Made by a program: the position numbers and the translations under genes. The notes under the pieces are model-generated. The model saw only the letters and a program-made list of their open reading frames with translations. It was not told the origin of the DNA and made no database searches. Below are positions 43,188 to 55,238 of a DNA stretch of 64,000 nucleotides, piece after piece. The stretch comes from Candidatus Marinarcus aquaticus (GTDB lineage Bacteria > Campylobacterota > Campylobacteria > Campylobacterales > Arcobacteraceae), in NCBI RefSeq assembly GCF_004116335.1, contig NZ_PDKN01000001.1:372001-436000 (forward strand), read 5' to 3'. Position 1 is the stretch's first letter. Every line of letters begins with the position of its first letter.

Positions 43188-43778
43188 TTGTCAGCTAAAG
43201 AGACAAAAAAAATTTCAATTATCGAAAAATCACTTAAACTTTTTTCTAAAAAAGGGTTTTACAATACCACTATTCCGGACATTGCTAAAGCAATGAAGAT
43301 GAGTGTGGGAAATATGTACAACTATTTTCCTTCTAAAGAAGAGCTTGCAAAATGTGCCATTAAATATTCTACCAATGTATTAGCACAAGATTTACGTGAA
43401 GTGAACAATATGGACATTTCTTCAAAAGAGAAAATTTATGAATTTACACGAAAATATTTTAAACGCGTTAAAAAAACACCTGAAATCATAGAGTATTTTT
43501 TACGAGTCTACCTCTCAAACAGAGAGGTATTTAACCAAGGATGCGAAGGTTTTCTTTGCGTTGGAGAGTTTGTAACAGAAGTGATGATTCTGCTTGATGA
43601 GGGTGCGGCTAAAAAAGAGTTTCGAGACCAAGACTTCTTTGCTGCCTTTGGTATGTTTATGGGAAGCTTAGGTGGTTTTGCATTTTTAAGCGGTGAAAAA
43701 GTACTGGAAAAAGACCTCTTAGATTACAGCGATTTGATTGCTGAAAACATCTATCGAGCACTGAAGTATGAGGAATAA
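43188..43778 (+). CDS. TetR-family transcriptional regulator
   Basis: The start is TTG 43188 with AAGGTAAG upstream. The 196-residue protein has the TetR helix-turn-helix at about residues 10-56: LKLFSKKGFYNTTIPDIA, MSVGNMYNYFPSKEEL. The ligand domain has no family match I can name. It contains two Cys, Cys119 and Cys124 (GCEGFLC), close enough for a redox switch or metal site. Its 3' end overlaps the cytosolic hydrogenase small-subunit gene by 11 bases. It is therefore probably made together with that enzyme. It is a good candidate for binding the palindromes before the two exported hydrogenases. Confidence 0.88.
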   Translation: MSAKETKKISIIEKSLKLFSKKGFYNTTIPDIAKAMKMSVGNMYNYFPSKEELAKCAIKYSTNVLAQDLREVNNMDISSKEKIYEFTRKYFKRVKKTPEIIEYFLRVYLSNREVFNQGCEGFLCVGEFVTEVMILLDEGAAKKEFRDQDFFAAFGMFMGSLGGFAFLSGEKVLEKDLLDYSDLIAENIYRALKYEE

Positions 43779-44667
43779 ACCAAAAGTTGTTTGGATTCAA
43801 GCCCTTACATGTAATGGCAATACACAATCACTTTTAAGTTCAAACGCCTCGCGTTTTGAACAGTTCCTTAATCAGTTTGAGCTTGTTTATCACCCCAGCT
43901 TAACACACCATACAACTTTAAATGATGTTCTTCAATCCAATGCCTCGTATGATTTTTTACTCATAGAGGGTGCTTTAACTTCAAATACTCAATTTTTAAC
44001 CTTAAGTGACCAAAGCAGTACGGCAATTGTAGAAAAACTCATCAAACGTTCACATTATGTGATTGCAGTGGGAAGTTGTGCGTCATACGGAGGGGTGCAT
44101 GCCAAGTTTGAACACAATGATGACGTGGTAGGTGTTCAGTCTGTTGTGGGTAAAAAAAGTGCATGTAAATCGGGTCACGATACGATTAACCTTACAGGTT
44201 GCCCTGTACATCCAGAGTGGATTTTACAAACACTTTATACGCTTAAAGCAAAAGGGAACATTGCTTTAGATGATGAGCAACGTCCCATTGAACTATACTC
44301 TCATTTAGCGCACCATGGGTGTACGAGAAATGAGTATTTTGAATGGAAAGTAGAGAGCAAAAGTTTTGGTTTAAAAGAGGGGTGTCTGTTTTATGAACAA
44401 GGGTGTCGAGGGCCCATGACACACAGCAGTTGTAATAAAATATTGTGGAATGATACCAGCTCAAAAACCCGAGTGGGCATGCCTTGTATTGGCTGTACTG
44501 AAACAGACTTTCCTCGTGAAAATATGCTTGAAACGAAGAAAAATATAGGTATTCCTGCAGAGGTGCCATTGGGTATCTCTAAACGTGCCTATCTTTCACT
44601 TACAGGGATTGCAAAAACTTTTAAAATAGAACGATTAATAGGAAAACTCATAGATGAAAACCGTTGA
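43768..44667 (+). CDS. cytosolic group 2-type [NiFe] hydrogenase small subunit
   Basis: The 299-residue protein has no Tat signal and starts near VVWIQALTCNGNTQS, the opening strand of a hydrogenase small subunit. Cys15 is the first proximal ligand, while the second position is Asn18 instead of Cys. Other ligands are GSCASYGG, GCPVHPEW, HHGCTR, EGCLFYEQGCRGP, SSC and PCIGCTE. The lack of a signal and the CxGN motif fit group 2 hydrogenases, which include uptake (HupS) and H2-sensing (HupU/HoxB) types. It overlaps the TetR gene and the large subunit gene. Its role, sensing or cytosolic H2 oxidation, is not settled. Confidence 0.85.
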   Translation: MRNKPKVVWIQALTCNGNTQSLLSSNASRFEQFLNQFELVYHPSLTHHTTLNDVLQSNASYDFLLIEGALTSNTQFLTLSDQSSTAIVEKLIKRSHYVIAVGSCASYGGVHAKFEHNDDVVGVQSVVGKKSACKSGHDTINLTGCPVHPEWILQTLYTLKAKGNIALDDEQRPIELYSHLAHHGCTRNEYFEWKVESKSFGLKEGCLFYEQGCRGPMTHSSCNKILWNDTSSKTRVGMPCIGCTETDFPRENMLETKKNIGIPAEVPLGISKRAYLSLTGIAKTFKIERLIGKLIDENR

Positions 44668-46009
44668 TATAATTGAAAGAATAGAAGGCGAAGCAAAACT
44701 TAATCTCCATTGGAAAAATAACAGAGTCAATGATGCCTATATTGAATTTCTCAATTTCAGAGGTTTTGAGTATATGTTGGAAGGAAAAGCACCTTTGGAC
44801 GCTCTTGTGTATACCCCAAGAATGTGTGGTATTTGCGGACAAGCGCATCTGCTTGCTACTGTGAATGCTTTGGAGGATTGTTATAAAAATGCCAACATAG
44901 AATTGCACGTCACTGCAAAAGCAAAAATTTTAAGAGAGTTGGGATTGATTATTGAAATTGTACAAAGCCATATTAAATGGTTTTACTTTTTTATTATGCC
45001 AGATATCAATGCTGCATCAATGACTCCACGAAAAGAGTTTGAACCTTTAAAAGGTCAACAGTGGTTAAAAGCTCAACGTGCCAGCAGTGAGATCACAAAA
45101 GCCTTGGCTCTTTTTGCTGGACAGTGGCCACATACATCCTATATGGTTCCAGGAGGAGTGATGTGTGATCCAACGCACATGGATATGATTTTAGTTGAAA
45201 ACTATATTGACCAAACCATTGCATACTTTGAAAAAGAGCTGGTGGGAATGGAGATGCAAAACTATCTTACTCTTTCACAAACAGATGATTTAAAGCTTTT
45301 AAAAGGGGATATAAAATCTTTTCTTAAGATGAGTTTTGAACAATCTTTAGAAAAAATAGGTCAAAGCTATAATCGATTTTTTGTAATATCGGATGCGTGT
45401 GGTTTTCATAAAGGAAAAATCAGACTAAAAAATGTCAGTAAATTTGAGATGAATAAAATCAAAGAACATGATGATTTTACGTTTGAACTCAACAGTAAAA
45501 TACAAAAAAAAGAGAAGTATGGTTGGGCAAAAACGGTGAAATATGATAACCTTTTTTATGAAACGGGACCCTTAGCAAGAGCCATGACCCAAAACAGACG
45601 TTTTATTAAGCAACTTCATAAAACCTATGATGACTCGGTGTTAACTCGCGTGATGGCCAGAGTCGATGAGATTGCTTATTTACTTCAAACAGCAAAAACA
45701 ATGTTGCACACTTTGGACATTTCAGAAGAGTCTTATATCGCTCCTAAAACGGCACTTAAGGAGATAAACTCAACCTTTGGTACGGGTTTTATTGAAGCTA
45801 CTAGAGGGGCACTTAAACATGAACTTATCATACACGAAGGTAAAATAAAATCTTATGATGTGGTTACTCCAACAGTATGGAATTTAGGACCTGGAGAAAA
45901 GCCTGATTATGGTGTAGCACAAAAGGCTTTAATTGGATTAAATTCACTGCAAGAAGCAACCATCGTTTTACGAAGCTTCGACGTTTGTTCTGTATGCACG
46001 ACTCATTAG
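44654..46009 (+). CDS. cytosolic group 2-type [NiFe] hydrogenase large subunit
   Basis: The 451-residue protein has the N-terminal nickel motif RMCGICGQAH (Cys58, Cys61, His65) and ends exactly at DVCSVCTTH (Cys445, Cys448). There is no residue after the His, so there is no C-terminal peptide for a maturation protease to remove. This is known for regulatory and some group 2 hydrogenases. The motif reads DVC rather than the usual DPC. It overlaps the small subunit gene by 14 bases. HypF and the rest of the Hyp system would still be needed to insert the cofactor. Confidence 0.88.
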   Translation: MKTVDIIERIEGEAKLNLHWKNNRVNDAYIEFLNFRGFEYMLEGKAPLDALVYTPRMCGICGQAHLLATVNALEDCYKNANIELHVTAKAKILRELGLIIEIVQSHIKWFYFFIMPDINAASMTPRKEFEPLKGQQWLKAQRASSEITKALALFAGQWPHTSYMVPGGVMCDPTHMDMILVENYIDQTIAYFEKELVGMEMQNYLTLSQTDDLKLLKGDIKSFLKMSFEQSLEKIGQSYNRFFVISDACGFHKGKIRLKNVSKFEMNKIKEHDDFTFELNSKIQKKEKYGWAKTVKYDNLFYETGPLARAMTQNRRFIKQLHKTYDDSVLTRVMARVDEIAYLLQTAKTMLHTLDISEESYIAPKTALKEINSTFGTGFIEATRGALKHELIIHEGKIKSYDVVTPTVWNLGPGEKPDYGVAQKALIGLNSLQEATIVLRSFDVCSVCTTH

Positions 46010-46110: not shown

Positions 46111-46126
46111 AAATGAATATTCATTT
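46111..46126. promoter_or_regulatory. perfect 16-base palindrome, candidate operator
   Basis: AAATGAATATTCATTT is a perfect palindrome of the kind bound by TetR-family dimers. It shares the TGAAT/ATTCA half-sites with the neighbouring sites but without the 4-base spacer. Confidence 0.5.
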
Positions 46127-46142: not shown

Positions 46143-46216
46143 ATCGGAGTTTTCTTCAGTTTTTGATTTTTATACAATAAATGTGATAAACTAATTAGTT
46201 ACATTATTGTTATTCC

Positions 46217-46237
46217 AATGCTATGTTAATGCTATGT
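46217..46237 (+). repeat. direct repeat with 11-base period
   Basis: AATGCTATGT occurs at 46217-46226 and again at 46228-46237, one helical turn apart, in the hydrogenase control region. Such spacing is typical of activator half-sites, but the bound protein is unknown. Confidence 0.4.
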
Positions 46238-46258: not shown

Positions 46259-46331
46259 TTCTTAAGTTTCGTATAAGTGTTATGTAGGTACTTTTTTAAA
46301 AGTTAATGAACATTCTGTATAGGAGGGAAAG

Positions 46332-47573
46332 ATGGTTGCAGATTCGCAAGAGATGGTAAAAAAGATGTTTACACAAAAATCGGCGCGTGTAGAGACGAAT
46401 AAGGGTGAAGAGTATTACAATAACCTTTATTCAAAAATGAGAGCCAGATTGGATTCATTAAAAGCTCAACCAAAGCTTAAAGAGATGGATATGATGGAAA
46501 TCATTGAGAGTGAAGGCGTGAACAGACGGGATTTTATGAAGTGGGTCAGTGCTACGACGGCAACACTTATGCTTCCTCCTATGTTTGCTCCATTGGTCGC
46601 TGAAGCAACAGAATTAATGAACAGAGTACCTGTTATTTGGATTGAGTTACAAGATTGTGCTGGTAACTCAGAAGCACTTTTACGAAGCAGTGCTCCTACA
46701 GTAGATGATTTACTTTTTGATGTATTAAGTCTGGAATTCCACGAAACAATCATGGCAGCATCAGGGCATCAAGCAGATGCACAACTTGAAGATGCAATGC
46801 ATCACTTTAAAGGGAAATATTTACTGTTTGTTGAAGGAGCCATTCCAACAGCAATGAATGGTCAATATGGAACGATTGGTGCAAGCGGTGAGACATTTAA
46901 AGAGCATTTAGAGAGATTAGCAAAAGATTCAGCTGCAGTTGTTGCAGTTGGTACCTGTGCTACCTTTGGTGGTATTCCTGCAGCTGCTCCAAATCCAACA
47001 GGTGCCGTTGGTGTTATGGACATTGTTAAAGGAAAACCACTGATTAATATTCCAGCCTGTCCAGCAAATCCAGCAAACATGGTGGGTGTTGTTTTACACT
47101 TTATTTTAAGCGGTCAAGTACCAGAGTTAGACTCATTATTACGACCAAAATTCGCATTTGGTTATAGAATCCACGATAACTGTGAAAGAAGAGCTCACTT
47201 CGATGCTGGTGAGTTCGTAGAAGAGTGGGGTGATGAAGGTGCTAAAAACAACTGGTGTTTATATAAAGTGGGTTGTAAAGGTCCTATGACATTTAATAAC
47301 TGTTCTATTATTCGATACAACGAAGGGACAAACTGGCCTATTGGTGTTGGTCGAGGATGTATTGGATGTAGTGAGCCAGACTTCTGGGATAAATATGCAT
47401 ACGAAAGACCAATGGCAGATGCTAATATTAAAGCACCTACTGGTGGAGTTGAAAAAACAGTTGATGAGTTCGGTTTAGGACTATTAACAGCAACAACAGT
47501 TGGTATTGCAGCACACGCAGTTGTAAGTGCAGTAGCAGGTAAAAAATCAGAGCATGGAGAAGATAATGAGTAA
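46332..47573 (+). CDS. hydA: exported [NiFe] hydrogenase 1 small subunit with Asn in the proximal-cluster motif
   Basis: The 413-residue protein has a Tat motif RRDFMKW at residues 65-71, preceded by an unusually long N-terminal extension. A hydrophobic signal region follows, and a C-terminal helix (VGIAAHAVVSAVAG) anchors the mature protein. The proximal cluster motif reads Cys109-Ala-Gly-Asn112 where Cys-x-x-Cys is normal; GTCATFGG and PACPANP keep the other two Cys. Distal ligands (HDNC, NWCLYKVGC) and the medial [3Fe-4S] set (FNNC, NWPIG, RGCIGC) are intact. It receives electrons from H2 at the large subunit and passes them to the cytochrome b encoded downstream. The hydB gene overlaps it by 8 bases. 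Confidence 0.9.
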   Translation: MVADSQEMVKKMFTQKSARVETNKGEEYYNNLYSKMRARLDSLKAQPKLKEMDMMEIIESEGVNRRDFMKWVSATTATLMLPPMFAPLVAEATELMNRVPVIWIELQDCAGNSEALLRSSAPTVDDLLFDVLSLEFHETIMAASGHQADAQLEDAMHHFKGKYLLFVEGAIPTAMNGQYGTIGASGETFKEHLERLAKDSAAVVAVGTCATFGGIPAAAPNPTGAVGVMDIVKGKPLINIPACPANPANMVGVVLHFILSGQVPELDSLLRPKFAFGYRIHDNCERRAHFDAGEFVEEWGDEGAKNNWCLYKVGCKGPMTFNNCSIIRYNEGTNWPIGVGRGCIGCSEPDFWDKYAYERPMADANIKAPTGGVEKTVDEFGLGLLTATTVGIAAHAVVSAVAGKKSEHGEDNE

Positions 47574-49305
47574 GAAACATTTAGTCATTGACCCAATTAC
47601 GAGAATTGAAGGTCACTTAAGAATCGAGGCAGTGATTGATGAGAACAATGTTATCACAGATGCATACAGTTCATCAACAATGTTCAGAGGGATTGAAGAG
47701 ATTTTAAAAGGAAGAGACCCTAGAGACTGTGGTCTACTTGCAATGAGAATCTGTGGAGTTTGTACAGGTACACATTATCAAAGAAGTATTGAAGCGGTTG
47801 AGCATGCATTTGGTGTAACGATTCCTAAAAATGCAAGATTGGTTCGAAACTTAATGCAAGGTGGATTGTATGTACATGACCACATTGTTCATTTCTATCA
47901 CCTGCATGCACTTGATTTTGTTGATATCACTAAAGCATTAGAAGCAGATCCTAAAAAAGCTGTAGCTGAAGCACACAAATGGGCAGAAATTGCTAAAACT
48001 AATCCTTGGAATGCAAGTGAAAGTGTGTATAAACAAGTTCAAGAAAGAGTGACTAAATATGTAAAACAAGGTCGACTTGGAATCTTCGGTAATGCTTACT
48101 GGGGAAGCAAAGCATATAAACTCACACCTGAGCAAAACTTGATTGCACTTTCTCACTATTTAGATGCATTAGAGTTACAAAGAGAGTTAGCTAAAGCATT
48201 GGCAATCTTTGGTGGTAAAAACCCACACCCGCAATCATTAGTTGTTGGTGGTGTAACGTGTGTTCAGGATATTAAAAATCCTTCACGAATTGCAGAGTAT
48301 AAACAAATCATGAAAAAAGCTCAAAAGTTTACTAAAGAGGCTTATTTACCAGATGTTTACATGGCAGGAACAATGTATGCGGATGAAGCACTTGCTGGTG
48401 TTGGTGGTGGTTTAGGTAACTTCATGTCTTATGGGGACTTTAACTTAGATGACTTACCATTCTATGACTCTAAAAAACTTTTTCCTTCAGGGGTTGTTTT
48501 AAATAAAGATATCTCTAAAGTGTTTGAATTAGATCAGTCTAAGATTACTGAAGACGTTACTCACGCTTGGTATGAGGGAACAACAAACCTTCACCCATAT
48601 GATGGTGTAACCAACCCTAACTATACAGGATTTGGTAAAAAAGAGGATGGAATTGCATATTTAGATACGAAGAAAAAATACTCTTGGATTAAATCTCCAC
48701 TGTACGATGATGAGAGAATGGAAGTGGGGCCATTAGCAAGAATGGTGATTGGTGTTGCTAAAGGGGATGAACTTATCAGCAAATATGTTACTACATTCTT
48801 GAAGAACGGTAACTTACCAACTAAAGTTCTTTTCTCAACCATTGGACGAACAGCTGCAAGAGCTATTGAGACTGAACTAATGGCAGACAAATGTATCGAG
48901 TGGTCTGATGAGTTAGCTGTAAACGTAGCAAACGGTGATTTATCAACATGGACTGAGTTTGATTTTGACAAAGTAGCTAAAGATGCAAAAGGTTATGGTA
49001 TGGCTGAAGCTCCACGTGGAGGTTTGGGTCACTGGGTTAAAATCAAAGACGGTAAAGTAGAAAACTATCAAGCGGTTGTTCCATCAACATGGAATGCAGC
49101 GCCAAGAGATTACAAAGAGCGATTAGGAGCTTATGAAGCCTCTTTAGTGGGAACTAAAGTGGTGAATCCTGATGAGCCTTTAGAAATCATCCGAACAGTT
49201 CACAGCTTCGACCCTTGTATTGCTTGTGCGGTTCACATTGTAGATACAAACGGTAAAGAGCTGAGTGTTTATAAAGTAGATCCACTAGGAGCAAGCCGTG
49301 CCTAA
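47566..49305 (+). CDS. hydB: exported [NiFe] hydrogenase 1 large subunit
   Basis: ATG 47566 lies behind GGAGAAG. The protein of about 579 residues has the L1 motif RICGVCTGTHYQRS and the L2 motif DPCIACAVH, so all four nickel cysteines are present. After the final His there are 22 residues, the peptide removed by a HyaD-type protease during maturation. RLGIFGNAYWGS and GRTAARAIET are typical of group 1 enzymes. It folds with HydA in the cytosol and is carried across the membrane by the Tat signal of that partner. Confidence 0.93.
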   Translation: MSKKHLVIDPITRIEGHLRIEAVIDENNVITDAYSSSTMFRGIEEILKGRDPRDCGLLAMRICGVCTGTHYQRSIEAVEHAFGVTIPKNARLVRNLMQGGLYVHDHIVHFYHLHALDFVDITKALEADPKKAVAEAHKWAEIAKTNPWNASESVYKQVQERVTKYVKQGRLGIFGNAYWGSKAYKLTPEQNLIALSHYLDALELQRELAKALAIFGGKNPHPQSLVVGGVTCVQDIKNPSRIAEYKQIMKKAQKFTKEAYLPDVYMAGTMYADEALAGVGGGLGNFMSYGDFNLDDLPFYDSKKLFPSGVVLNKDISKVFELDQSKITEDVTHAWYEGTTNLHPYDGVTNPNYTGFGKKEDGIAYLDTKKKYSWIKSPLYDDERMEVGPLARMVIGVAKGDELISKYVTTFLKNGNLPTKVLFSTIGRTAARAIETELMADKCIEWSDELAVNVANGDLSTWTEFDFDKVAKDAKGYGMAEAPRGGLGHWVKIKDGKVENYQAVVPSTWNAAPRDYKERLGAYEASLVGTKVVNPDEPLEIIRTVHSFDPCIACAVHIVDTNGKELSVYKVDPLGASRA

Positions 49306-50008
49306 ATATAAAAAGGTTGAGCGTATGACGCCAATCATGCGAACCATTCACTGGGTGAATGCGATTTGCATGGTTGCAGCAGTCGCAACCGGGTTATACA
49401 TAGGTCATCCATATTATCAAACATTTATTGCAGACCCTGCAGTGGATAAATATGTGATGGCATGGAATAGATGGGGGCACTTTATTGTAGCCATCATCTT
49501 TGATGTAACAGCAATCTTAATTGGGTATTTATACCTATTTTCAAGATTTGAAAAACCATACAAAAAGATTTTGCCAACGAAGAAAAATTTTGTTGAGTTT
49601 TGTGAAGTCTTCTTTAACTTAATTACCTTTAACCGAAGAAAGAAGTTTGATTCAACGCACAGTGACAGTTATAACATCATGTTCTTTACGCTGTTTCACA
49701 TTCTTTTAGTGTTCATGTTATTAACAGGACTTCAACTCTATGTACATGGTTTAGCTTCAGGACAGAGTTCAATTGGAGCTTGGTGGCCATGGCTACTTCA
49801 CTTTTCTACAGATTGGACATTGAGCCTCTTTGGTGGAAACATGGGTGTAAGAATTGCTCACCACACTGCAATGTACTTGATTTTAATGTGGGTGATGTCT
49901 CATATTTATTATCAAATTTGGAGAACCATCTTCTGGCAAGAGGGTGATATTAACATTGTTTTAGGTGGATATAAATTTGCACCAAAACAGAAAAAAGAGC
50001 AAGAGTAA
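49298..50008 (+). CDS. hydC: hydrogenase 1 cytochrome b subunit
   Basis: The start is GTG 49298 behind AGGAGCAAGCC, overlapping hydB by 8 bases. The 236-residue protein has four membrane helices with His at haem-ligand positions: RTIHWVNAICMVAAVATGLYIGHP in the first, HFIVAIIFD in the second, MLLTGLQLYVHG in the third and AHHTAMYLILMWVMSHIYYQ in the fourth. It takes electrons from HydA to the quinone pool and fixes the enzyme in the inner membrane. Two terminators follow, so the structural genes may be expressed more strongly than hydD. Confidence 0.9.
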   Translation: MPKYKKVERMTPIMRTIHWVNAICMVAAVATGLYIGHPYYQTFIADPAVDKYVMAWNRWGHFIVAIIFDVTAILIGYLYLFSRFEKPYKKILPTKKNFVEFCEVFFNLITFNRRKKFDSTHSDSYNIMFFTLFHILLVFMLLTGLQLYVHGLASGQSSIGAWWPWLLHFSTDWTLSLFGGNMGVRIAHHTAMYLILMWVMSHIYYQIWRTIFWQEGDINIVLGGYKFAPKQKKEQE

Positions 50009-50075: not shown

Positions 50076-50148
50076 AGTTTAAAAGCAGTGTAAAGAGCAA
50101 GAGACTTTTTTCAGTGCTTTTATGGTGAAAGCTTCAAGGGAGAATAGA

Positions 50149-50724
50149 ATGAAAAATATTGTAGTGGGTGTTGGTAATTTACTCTTTAAAGATGAGGGTA
50201 TAGGAATCTATGCTGCAAAATATATAGAAGAGAACTATACGTTTGAACCAGAAATTGAAATCATTGATGGGGGAACACTGGGGTTTAAACTCATGAGTTA
50301 TTTTCAAGAGTATGATAATGTCATTATCTTAGACACCGTTTCCATAGAGGACAAAGCAGGTGAGATTTTCAGACTGCCATCTGATGTTTTACTTGGATTA
50401 GGAAACTATCGAAAAACAGCGCATGAAGTTGAGATTGTAGAGATGCTGGAAATTTGTTCAGTGTTGGATAAACATGCTGCAGTTACTATTATGGGAATCA
50501 TTCCTGAAGACATTGAAAAAGTAGAAATTGGTTTAACTCAAAGCATTGAAAACAGATTTGAAGAGTATATTGCACATGTGATTAAAGAGATTGAATCAAT
50601 TGGATGCAGTGCTAACAAGAAAAATGATAAAACCATCAAACAAATTGCACAAGAACTTATTGGAAGTTACAACGGCGAACACTTAAGCAGAATACCAAAT
50701 GAGGAAGATACGACATGGAATTAA
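50149..50724 (+). CDS. hydD: hydrogenase maturation protease (HyaD/HybD type) 1
   Basis: I chose ATG 50149, behind AAGGGAG; an in-frame ATG at 50122 lacks such a site. The protein of about 191 residues has GVGNLLFKDEGIG with the Glu, IIDGGTLG with the Asp and TAHEVE with the His, the three nickel-probing ligands of the HybD family. It cuts the C-terminal peptide of HydB after nickel insertion. It has a longer C-terminal tail than E. coli HyaD. It overlaps the next gene by 10 bases. Confidence 0.9.
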   Translation: MKNIVVGVGNLLFKDEGIGIYAAKYIEENYTFEPEIEIIDGGTLGFKLMSYFQEYDNVIILDTVSIEDKAGEIFRLPSDVLLGLGNYRKTAHEVEIVEMLEICSVLDKHAAVTIMGIIPEDIEKVEIGLTQSIENRFEEYIAHVIKEIESIGCSANKKNDKTIKQIAQELIGSYNGEHLSRIPNEEDTTWN

Positions 50725-52298: not shown

Positions 52299-52316
52299 AC
52301 AATTTCTAATAATAAA

Positions 52317-52330
52317 TGAATACTCATTCA
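52317..52330. promoter_or_regulatory. TGAAT-N4-ATTCA operator candidate 3
   Basis: TGAATACTCATTCA lies directly before the AAGGA ribosome site of the second hydA. Half-sites and spacing are identical to the two sites before the first exported hydrogenase. Confidence 0.6.
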
Positions 52331-52344
52331 GATAAGGAATAAAA

Positions 52345-53505
52345 TTGAAAGATAATAACCTTTATGAAAAGCTGAGTTTACGACTATTAGAGCTCGAAAA
52401 ACTTCCAGGCTTAAAAAATAATGAAAATATAAAAAGTCATTTAGATAAAAATGGTGTCTCAAGAAGAGATTTTATGAAGTGGGCAGGAGCAATGACAGCA
52501 ACATTGGGTTTATCTGCAAATTTTACTCCTCTGGTTGCAAAAGCGGCGACACTCAGCGATAAGTTACCTATTATTTGGTTGCATATGGCAGAGTGTACAG
52601 GCTGTTCTGAATCACTTCTTAGAACAGATGCACCCACCATTGACTCTTTAATCTTTGATTACATCAGTTTAGAGTATCACGAAACGTTAATGGCAGCAGC
52701 AGGTTGGCAAGCAGAACACAATCTTGAACATGCCATTGAAACACACAAAGGCAAATATATCCTTATGGTTGAAGGTGGGATTCCAAGTGGCAATAACAGC
52801 TTTTACCTTACTGTAGGTGGTCATGGAAATACAGGTGAAACGATTGCTCAAAATGCCAGTGAACATGCAGCTGCTATTTTTGCAATTGGTACGTGTTCTG
52901 CATTTGGTGGTGTACAAGCAGCTCATCCGAATCCTACTGGAGCAGTGGCACTTTCAAAAGTTACGAATAAAACAGTGATTAACGTACCAGGGTGCCCTCC
53001 AAGTGAAAAGAATATTGTGGGAACTTTGTTCCACTATATTTTATATGGAACACTTCCAGCTTTAGATGCTTATAATCGACCCAAATGGGCATATGGACTT
53101 CGAGTACATGATTTATGTGAACGAAGAGGACGATTTGATGCAGGTGAATTTGTGGAAGAGTTTGGAGATGAAGGTGCTAAAAAAGGGTATTGCTTATATA
53201 AAGTAGGGTGTAAAGGACCTTATACATTTAATAATTGTGGTAAAAACCGATTTAACTCTCATACGTCATGGCCAATTCAAGCAGGTCATGGGTGCATTGG
53301 GTGCAGTGAACCTGACTTTTGGGACAAAATGGGACCCTTTGAAGAACCCGTTGCAAACAGACTCTTTAACACACCATTTAATGGCTTAGGAGCAGATGCC
53401 ACAGCAGATAAAATTGGTGTGGGACTGTTGACTGCTACGGGAATTGGTATTGCAGCACACGCAATGATTTCAAAATTTAAAAACCCAAAAAGTGATGAGG
53501 AGTAG
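52345..53505 (+). CDS. hydA: exported [NiFe] hydrogenase 2 small subunit
   Basis: The start is TTG 52345 behind AAGGA at good spacing. The 386-residue protein has the Tat motif SRRDFMKW (Arg40-Arg41) and the normal proximal motif ECTGCSES (Cys84, Cys87). GTCSAFGG and GCPPSEKN supply the other proximal Cys. Distal (HDLC, YCLYKVGC) and medial (NNC, SWPI, HGCIGC) ligands are complete. A C-terminal helix (GIGIAAHAMISK) anchors it. The extra proximal Cys pair of oxygen-tolerant group 1d enzymes is absent. It pairs with the large subunit two bases downstream. Confidence 0.93.
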   Translation: MKDNNLYEKLSLRLLELEKLPGLKNNENIKSHLDKNGVSRRDFMKWAGAMTATLGLSANFTPLVAKAATLSDKLPIIWLHMAECTGCSESLLRTDAPTIDSLIFDYISLEYHETLMAAAGWQAEHNLEHAIETHKGKYILMVEGGIPSGNNSFYLTVGGHGNTGETIAQNASEHAAAIFAIGTCSAFGGVQAAHPNPTGAVALSKVTNKTVINVPGCPPSEKNIVGTLFHYILYGTLPALDAYNRPKWAYGLRVHDLCERRGRFDAGEFVEEFGDEGAKKGYCLYKVGCKGPYTFNNCGKNRFNSHTSWPIQAGHGCIGCSEPDFWDKMGPFEEPVANRLFNTPFNGLGADATADKIGVGLLTATGIGIAAHAMISKFKNPKSDEE

Positions 53506-53507
53506 GC

Positions 53508-55238
53508 ATGGCAAATAAAAGAGTAGTAATTGATCCTATTACAAGAATAGAAGGACACTTGCGTATTGAAGTTGAAGTGGATGATAACAATGTCATTCAA
53601 AAAGCTTACTCAACGGCAACACTTTGGAGAGGGTTAGAGACCATTGTTAAAAACAGAGACCCAAGAGATGCAGGATTTTTAATGCAACGTATTTGTGGGG
53701 TATGTACTTTTTCTCACTATCGAGCAGGGATTGAAGCAGTTGAAGATGCCTTGGGTATCATTCCTCCTTTAAATGCTAAACTCACGCGAACACTGATGAA
53801 CCAAGCTCTGTTTATGCATGACCATGTGGTGCACTTTTACCATCTTCATGGATTGGATTGGGTGGATGTGGTGAGTGCATTGGATGCCAATCCTGCTAAA
53901 GCCAGCAAAGAGGCATTTAAATACACTGACCTGCCAATTGCAACGGGTGAAGATGAACTTAAAGCGGTGAAAACAAGAGTAAAAGAGTTTGTCCAAAGAG
54001 GACAACTTGGGCCTTTTGCCAATGCTTATTGGGGACATAAAACTTATCGATTCACTCCTGAACAAAATTTAATTTTGTTAAGCCACTACTTAAAAGCTTT
54101 AGAGGTTCAACGAGATTTAGCCAAACTGATGGCACTTTTTGGTGGAAAACAACCGCACCCACAAAGTTTAACTGTGGGTGGTGTAACGTGTGTGATGGAC
54201 TTGTTAGATCCTTCACGAATGGGTGAGTATTTGACACTCTTTAAAAAAGGGGCAGAGTTTATAGAACGTGCTTATAGTGCAGATGTATTGATGGCAGCAG
54301 ATGTTTATAAAGATGAAGCCAGTGTTACAAGTAAAGCGGCAGTTATGAACTTTATGTCTCACCAAAGCATGCAATTAGGAAGAAATGAGCACCTATTTGA
54401 TGCAGGGATTATTTTAAATGGAGATTTAACTCAAGTGCATGAGGTGAATGAGGATTTAATTACTGAGGAAGCAACACATGCTTGGTACAGTGATAATGAA
54501 CCGCTTCATCCATATGATGGAAAAACAAATCCAAATTATACAGGCATGAAAGCAATGAAAACTGTAGGTGCCAATGGTGAGATGGTGGATTCAAAAGTCA
54601 TTGATGAAAAAGGAAAATATACGTGGATTAAATCCCCACGTTATGACGGTAAAGCCATGGAAGTGGGACCTCTTTCATCCATCTTGATTTCATATGCAAA
54701 AGGGAACAAACGTATTGTTCCTTTAGTGGATGCATTCTTAAAAAAATCAGGGCTTCCATTAGAAGCACTCTTCTCAACTTTAGGAAGAACAGCCGCTCGT
54801 ATGATTCAAGCGCAAGCCATTGCAAAGCATGGACTGGAAACGTTTAATAACTTGATTGAAAACCTCAAAGTTGACCAAGAGACCTACAGTTCATATAAAA
54901 TCGACCAAGACAAAGAGTACAAAGGGCGATTTATTGGGGATGTTCCAAGAGGGATGCTTTCTCACTGGATTCGTATTAAAAATGGAGTTGTGGAGAACTA
55001 TCAAGCGGTGGTTCCTTCAACTTGGAATGCAGGACCTGTGGATGCCAATGGGGTGTATGGTCCATATGAAGCCAACTTGGTAGGATTAAAAGTTCAAGAT
55101 ATTTCACAACCACTGGAAATCATACGTGTGATTCACAGTTTTGACCCATGTATTGCGTGTGCAGTTCATGTAATGGACACAAAAGGGAATGACTTAGGTA
55201 CATACAAGGTAGAACACAGCTTTAGAAAAGTGTGTTAG
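53508..55238 (+). CDS. hydB: exported [NiFe] hydrogenase 2 large subunit
   Basis: The 576-residue protein has the L1 motif RICGVCTFSHYRAG and the L2 motif DPCIACAVH, with 22 residues after the final His as cleavable tail. It is clearly homologous to the hydrogenase 1 large subunit but diverged, and has an extra segment around KAMKTVGANGEM. GAGGAG precedes the ATG. With HydA and HydC it should oxidise H2 on the periplasmic side and feed quinone. Confidence 0.94.
   Translation: MANKRVVIDPITRIEGHLRIEVEVDDNNVIQKAYSTATLWRGLETIVKNRDPRDAGFLMQRICGVCTFSHYRAGIEAVEDALGIIPPLNAKLTRTLMNQALFMHDHVVHFYHLHGLDWVDVVSALDANPAKASKEAFKYTDLPIATGEDELKAVKTRVKEFVQRGQLGPFANAYWGHKTYRFTPEQNLILLSHYLKALEVQRDLAKLMALFGGKQPHPQSLTVGGVTCVMDLLDPSRMGEYLTLFKKGAEFIERAYSADVLMAADVYKDEASVTSKAAVMNFMSHQSMQLGRNEHLFDAGIILNGDLTQVHEVNEDLITEEATHAWYSDNEPLHPYDGKTNPNYTGMKAMKTVGANGEMVDSKVIDEKGKYTWIKSPRYDGKAMEVGPLSSILISYAKGNKRIVPLVDAFLKKSGLPLEALFSTLGRTAARMIQAQAIAKHGLETFNNLIENLKVDQETYSSYKIDQDKEYKGRFIGDVPRGMLSHWIRIKNGVVENYQAVVPSTWNAGPVDANGVYGPYEANLVGLKVQDISQPLEIIRVIHSFDPCIACAVHVMDTKGNDLGTYKVEHSFRKVC

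Follow-up and report, generated by a model that had tools for sequence, protein, structure and literature searches.

The overlapping tetR, hupU-like and hupV-like genes of Candidatus Marinarcus aquaticus are best read as one H2-responsive switch, in which TetR would repress the uptake hydrogenases and the NiFe hydrogenase HupUV would be its H2 input; we put the probability of this reading as a whole at roughly two in three. The trio is located in the window, i.e., the whole stretch of 64,000 nucleotides that was analysed, as follows:

43188..43778, + strand: tetR, a FadR-like TetR repressor (TTG start, 196 aa) with an invariant Cys119/Cys124 loop
43768..44667, + strand: hupU-like gene, small subunit of a predicted cytosolic NiFe hydrogenase (299 aa), without a Tat leader
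44654..46009, + strand: hupV-like gene, large subunit of the group 2d clade (451 aa), terminating at the last Ni-motif His

The ORF coordinates agree with the overlaps of 11 bases (tetR/hupU) and 14 bases (hupU/hupV) claimed in the sequence-only reading, and the HupV C-terminus (...FDVCSVCTTH-stop) has, as was also claimed, zero residues beyond the final Ni-motif His. The cytosolic location proposed there is likewise predicted here, because HupU begins at the first Fe-S motif and carries no Tat leader, which HydA possesses. TetR matches the Pfam TetR_N domain (E 1.8e-14), and HupU and HupV match the Pfam NiFe small- and large-subunit families, respectively. A histidine kinase is indeed absent from the cluster, and kinase-like stretches are present elsewhere in the window and in the genome. 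A hidden HoxJ-type kinase was considered, and no HoxJ orthologue was found in the genome, the best match (31%) covering the kinase core only. No electron-acceptor subunit is present in the hupUV operon.

The hydrogenase genes located downstream of the trio comprise the predicted targets of TetR:

46332..50008, + strand: hydA-hydB-hydC, Tat-exported group 1 uptake hydrogenase, predicted target (HydA 46332-47573, HydB 47554-49305)
50122..50724, + strand: hydD, a HycI-type maturation protease, expected to serve HydB and not HupV
52345..55238, + strand: hydA2-hydB2, a second group 1 uptake hydrogenase, predicted target

Both HydB and HydB2 extend past the Ni motif, unlike HupV, which is predicted to need no maturation protease, as the C-terminal peptide is absent.

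The trio is conserved well beyond the source genome. Among 149 relatives within the order Campylobacterales, which are not independent samples, TetR was found in 78 of the 79 HupV-positive relatives against 4 of the 70 HupV-less ones (Fisher p 3e-36), so the co-occurrence that the sequence-only reading had left to be checked was borne out; in three of the four TetR-positive, HupV-less cases the contig breaks off within hupU, and the fourth is a paralogue. On nearly all intact contigs, tetR lies directly upstream of hupUV. Of 57 loci representing more than 10 families, almost all have tetR and hupU either overlapping or close to touching, so this arrangement is not a matter of chance. A scan of approximately 85,000 genomes resulted in 80 named loci, including those of Hydrogenothermaceae, Aquificaceae and Persephonella, and in 66 of them TetR is present, every time upstream and on the same strand. 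In seven of the 14 TetR-less named loci, less than ~1.2 kb of sequence precedes hupV; in the remaining seven, of which six are Aquificota, there is more upstream room and still no TetR. The trio thus spans two phyla, being recurrent across Campylobacterales and present in Aquificota, and on a Sulfurimonas paralvinellae plasmid the order tetR-hupU-hupV-hydA-hydB-hydC is annotated. A group 1 uptake hydrogenase was present in 78/79 HupV-positive and 39/70 HupV-less relatives. As a side observation, four Aquificota contigs (L185, L191, L194 and L195) carry hupV without neighbouring hupU or tetR.

The assignment of the enzyme to the cytosolic group 2 hydrogenases was upheld, while its filing with HupUV in general was narrowed to a clade other than the kinase-linked group 2b: in the HupV tree, the Campylobacterota and Aquificota proteins fall into a single clade (100/100) that is separate from HoxC (2b) and Huc (2a). 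This clade matches HydDB group 2d, an assignment based on the tree and the literature; HuaSL of Aliarcobacter butzleri has been classed as group 2d (PMC12286921), and the role of this group is given in HydDB as "Unresolved role. May generate reductant for carbon fixation or have a regulatory role" (PMC5037454). HupV ends at the last Ni-motif residue in the aligned Campylobacterales proteins and in all 80 named loci; in 21 of these 80, the final residue is Gln or Lys, not His. The isoleucine of the CGIC motif in the gas channel is invariant in HupV (65/65). At the second gas-channel position, the HupV of the window and 30/65 proteins overall have Phe, the remainder having mostly Thr or Val; this Phe is typical of the Arcobacteraceae-type group, as in HoxC, and is replaced in most other families. 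The Fe-S cysteines of HupU are kept except for the second proximal one, which is usually Asn. The same substitution (CxGN) was observed in HydA (46332-47573) as well as in HupU (43768-44667) of the window and is common in HydA of relatives (113/128 matches); HydA2 retains CxGC at the proximal cluster.

The TetR model is confident (pLDDT 92.7), with an all-helical TetR fold for which FadR of Bacillus subtilis is the closest solved fold; the score against the FadR NCBIfam equivalog (38 bits) is far below the cut-off of 200. The regulator evolves more slowly than the enzyme, as the mean identity is 0.62 for TetR, 0.52 for HupU and 0.46 for HupV. Within TetR, residues 98-133 (conservation 0.83) are more conserved than the HTH (0.75), and loop 111-125 of this region contains the C119-x-G-x-x-C124 motif. 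Cys119 and Cys124, which had been singled out as a possible redox switch, exist and are invariant in 59/59 TetR proteins, and they are also kept in Aquificota. The pair is missing from eight TetR paralogues without HupUV and is retained by one paralogue beside hydABCD. A repeated loss of the pair wherever HupUV is absent was considered and rejected, a single change on the tree being found; the correlation between the Cys pair and HupUV is therefore suggestive only. That the pair is the receiving site of the signal has, in our estimate, somewhat less than an even chance. Some paralogues of this TetR adjoin an operon for a group-4-like hydrogenase, hypF and a hydABCD cluster (L112 5071-5652, L115 456-1040 and L107 4391-5588), and among those in these three loci, only L107a has the Cys pair.

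The link between TetR and the uptake hydrogenases comes from a predicted operator, copies of which in the window are:

46112..46125, no strand assigned: exact copy of the predicted TetR operator, AATGAATATTCATT, ~220 bp upstream of the hydA start codon
46247..46260, no strand assigned: one-mismatch operator-like site upstream of hydA
46305..46318, no strand assigned: two-mismatch operator-like site beside the hydA ribosome-binding site, where relatives have the exact site
52315..52328, no strand assigned: exact copy of the predicted TetR operator, AATGAATACTCATT, 30 bp ahead of hydA2

The palindrome AATGA-N4-TCATT occurs exactly upstream of hydA in 29 of 30 trio-bearing Arcobacteraceae, against a mean of 0.02 in the shuffles, and its distance to the ATG is mostly 20-45 bp. 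The consensus was chosen after viewing these same promoters (the first 65 loci), and the calls are based on alignment plus this one consensus. Independent of that choice are the results for nine further genomes, Aquificota, TetR-less controls and displaced hydA genes. Seven of the nine genomes have exact operators and two have one-mismatch operators at about the same position; in Aquificota, 5/6 hydA promoters carry the exact operator. In the hydA promoters of TetR-less genomes, the exact operator was found in 0/30 and a one-mismatch version in 1/30; these controls include six genomes of the genus containing Arcobacter caeni, the TetR-positive members of which have the operator. In several genomes where hydA is displaced by 0.8-3.6 kb from hupV, the operator stays with hydA, and a few displaced copies are without it. 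In other families, it is found within one mismatch in 21/24 loci where hydA is the next gene (~1 expected). The motif thus depends on the presence of TetR. Two separate sites, TGAA-YR-TTCA and TGAAT-N4-ATTCA, were initially distinguished and then dropped, since they merge into the single palindrome; the idea that these AT-rich genomes carry the palindrome in general was rejected on the strength of the shuffles and the TetR-less controls.

A -10-like box, read by eye, lies just upstream of the operator, which therefore covers the expected transcription start, a repressor position. The only exact copies in the window are those at 46112 (hydA) and 52315 (hydA2), and among the nine exact copies genome-wide, only these two sit at hydrogenase promoters. 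As the genome-wide count of nine is only a modest excess over the four of a reversed-pattern control, most of the other matches are probably chance. Judging from these sequence patterns, TetR very probably acts on the hyd operator. The proposal that TetR may be the output was partly supported: its near-constant partnership with HupUV, the lack of any kinase substitute, the predicted operator on the uptake-hydrogenase promoters and the invariant Cys119/Cys124 are all strongly backed by the comparison of genomes. Some loci deserve separate mention: L185, one of the four Aquificota contigs with an isolated hupV, retains the operator upstream of hydA, and in a single genome (L086 4256-6235) the gene for a Cache-domain histidine kinase separates hupV from hydA, with no operator found before hydA of this locus.

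Taken together, we infer the following sequence of events. Dimeric FadR-like TetR would bind AATGA-N4-TCATT over the transcription start of hydABC and hydA2B2 and, when bound, hold the uptake hydrogenases low. HupUV, the putative cytosolic sensor encoded in the same overlapping message as TetR, would in the presence of H2 transfer electrons to TetR or make a contact with it, the receiving point most likely being the Cys119/Cys124 loop in the form of a dithiol/disulfide or a metal centre; TetR would then leave the operator, allowing expression of the uptake operons. More generally, and tentatively, the group 2d NiFe hydrogenases of Aquificota and Campylobacterota may be kinase-free H2 sensors wired by direct electron transfer to the TetR Cys pair. 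Among the findings that count against the switch are the Aquificota with HupV or HupUV and no adjacent TetR, the single change on the tree behind the correlation of the Cys pair with HupUV, and the non-conserved gas-channel Phe outside the Arcobacteraceae-type group.

Published expression data bear on this reading from both sides. In A. butzleri, RNA-seq under a CO2/N2 headspace contrasted cultures that had received H2 with cultures that had not; both group 1b hynAB operons were up 2.3-6.2-fold with H2 and huaSL was down, in a comparison where 1191/2260 genes changed (PMC12286921). This pattern is consistent with the operator placement at the level of the genus Aliarcobacter, where the site precedes both hyd operons but not tetR. 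In Sulfurospirillum multivorans, hydB is constitutive, with no increase upon H2, and there is hardly any transcription of hupL (PMC5357620); the behaviour of hydB counts against a universal H2 response, though this organism can make H2 itself. The adjacency of tetR and hupSL was noted earlier in the same species, where the H2 sensor was said to be missing and TetR was guessed to repress hupSL itself (Kruse 2017, PMC5357620). The adjacency was thus already known, and what is new here is the hydA operator and the reading of TetR as the output.

That earlier guess, in which TetR mainly represses hupUV and the hydA site is secondary, can draw on the adjacency itself and on a one-mismatch copy of the operator that also lies before tetR in 18-19/30 Arcobacteraceae loci. 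It is nevertheless scarcely credible as the main function, since the site before hydA is nearly universal, while none was found before tetR in the source genome or in the four Aliarcobacter loci inspected. A more serious alternative, which we still regard as unlikely, is that HupUV is a catalytic cytosolic uptake enzyme reducing ferredoxin for the reductive TCA cycle, with TetR as an ordinary repressor that responds to a metabolite, coordinates every hydrogenase gene and receives no signal from HupUV. Such a role has been proposed for Aquifex (hydrogenase III) and S. multivorans, all hydrogenase ligands are conserved, the FadR-like fold suggests a small-molecule pocket, and some Aquificota retain HupV without TetR. 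However, an enzyme of this kind is not readily reconciled with an operon devoid of an electron-acceptor subunit, with a TetR that is both a near-constant partner and more conserved than the enzyme, with a HupV that almost never occurs without a group 1 hydrogenase, or with HuaSL going down while the uptake enzymes go up with H2 in A. butzleri. Moreover, hydrogenase III of A. aeolicus proved difficult to detect and was judged to play hardly any part in ferredoxin reduction (PMC10052474), which favours a regulatory role.

It could also be supposed that TetR senses the general redox state or O2 via its Cys pair and that HupUV does no more than set this state or is a co-regulated passenger, with the signal being other than H2 itself. 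The invariant pair does lie in a loop between helices, and oxic-anoxic interfaces are a frequent habitat of these bacteria, in which hydrogenase genes have been reported to lack FNR/ArcA-type control (PMC5357620). Yet the near-constant genetic coupling to one hydrogenase, together with the induction of both hyn operons by H2 when cultures with and without it were compared under a CO2/N2 headspace, makes this account highly improbable.

The switch proposed here, with TetR responding to HupUV, resembles the HoxBC/HupUV systems (group 2b, HoxJ/HupT kinase, HoxA/HupR regulator) in the predicted cytosolic location, the lack of a Tat leader and of a C-terminal peptide, the CGIC isoleucine and the position of the genes beside their own regulator. 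It differs from them in that TetR stands in place of the kinase partner, the enzyme belongs to a separate clade, the proximal Cys is often Asn and the extra medial Cys is absent. By the tree, the trio enzyme belongs to the same clade (group 2d) as Aquifex hydrogenase III, S. multivorans HupSL and A. butzleri HuaSL, and S. multivorans HupSL also shares the gene neighbourhood. A non-kinase output is common to the trio and group 2c, the diguanylate-cyclase-linked putative sensor (PMC5037454), but the output here would be a TetR repressor rather than cyclic-di-GMP, and no GGDEF gene was seen beside the trio. Compared to B. subtilis FadR, the trio TetR has the invariant Cys loop and predicted hydrogenase targets. 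The operator halves of B. subtilis FadR, TGAATGA/TCATTCA, are similar to those of the predicted hydA operator.

If correct, this reading would mean that a NiFe enzyme can relay the presence of H2 to a DNA-binding repressor with neither a kinase nor cyclic-di-GMP in between, and this in bacteria that are major H2 oxidisers at vents and redoxclines. The H2-induced hydrogenases of Campylobacterota would thereby gain their missing regulator, and a compact genetic switch that responds to H2 would become available. Given the TetR linkage and the matched operator, the role of group 2d becomes a matter for simple tests.

Two further observations were made. A third hydrogenase cluster of the source genome (L037 3308-12304, contig C10) encodes an 806-aa HydA-like fusion together with HydB-like and group-4-like subunits, and the exact operator was not found at this cluster. 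Additionally, a TGCTA repeat, e.g., AATGCTATnTTAATGCTAT, at ~46200-46230 in the window recurs upstream of hydA in Arcobacteraceae: among the hydA promoters of L007-L036, ATGCTA is present in 24/30 and two TGCTA copies in 16/30, and this repeat is possibly the site of a second regulator.
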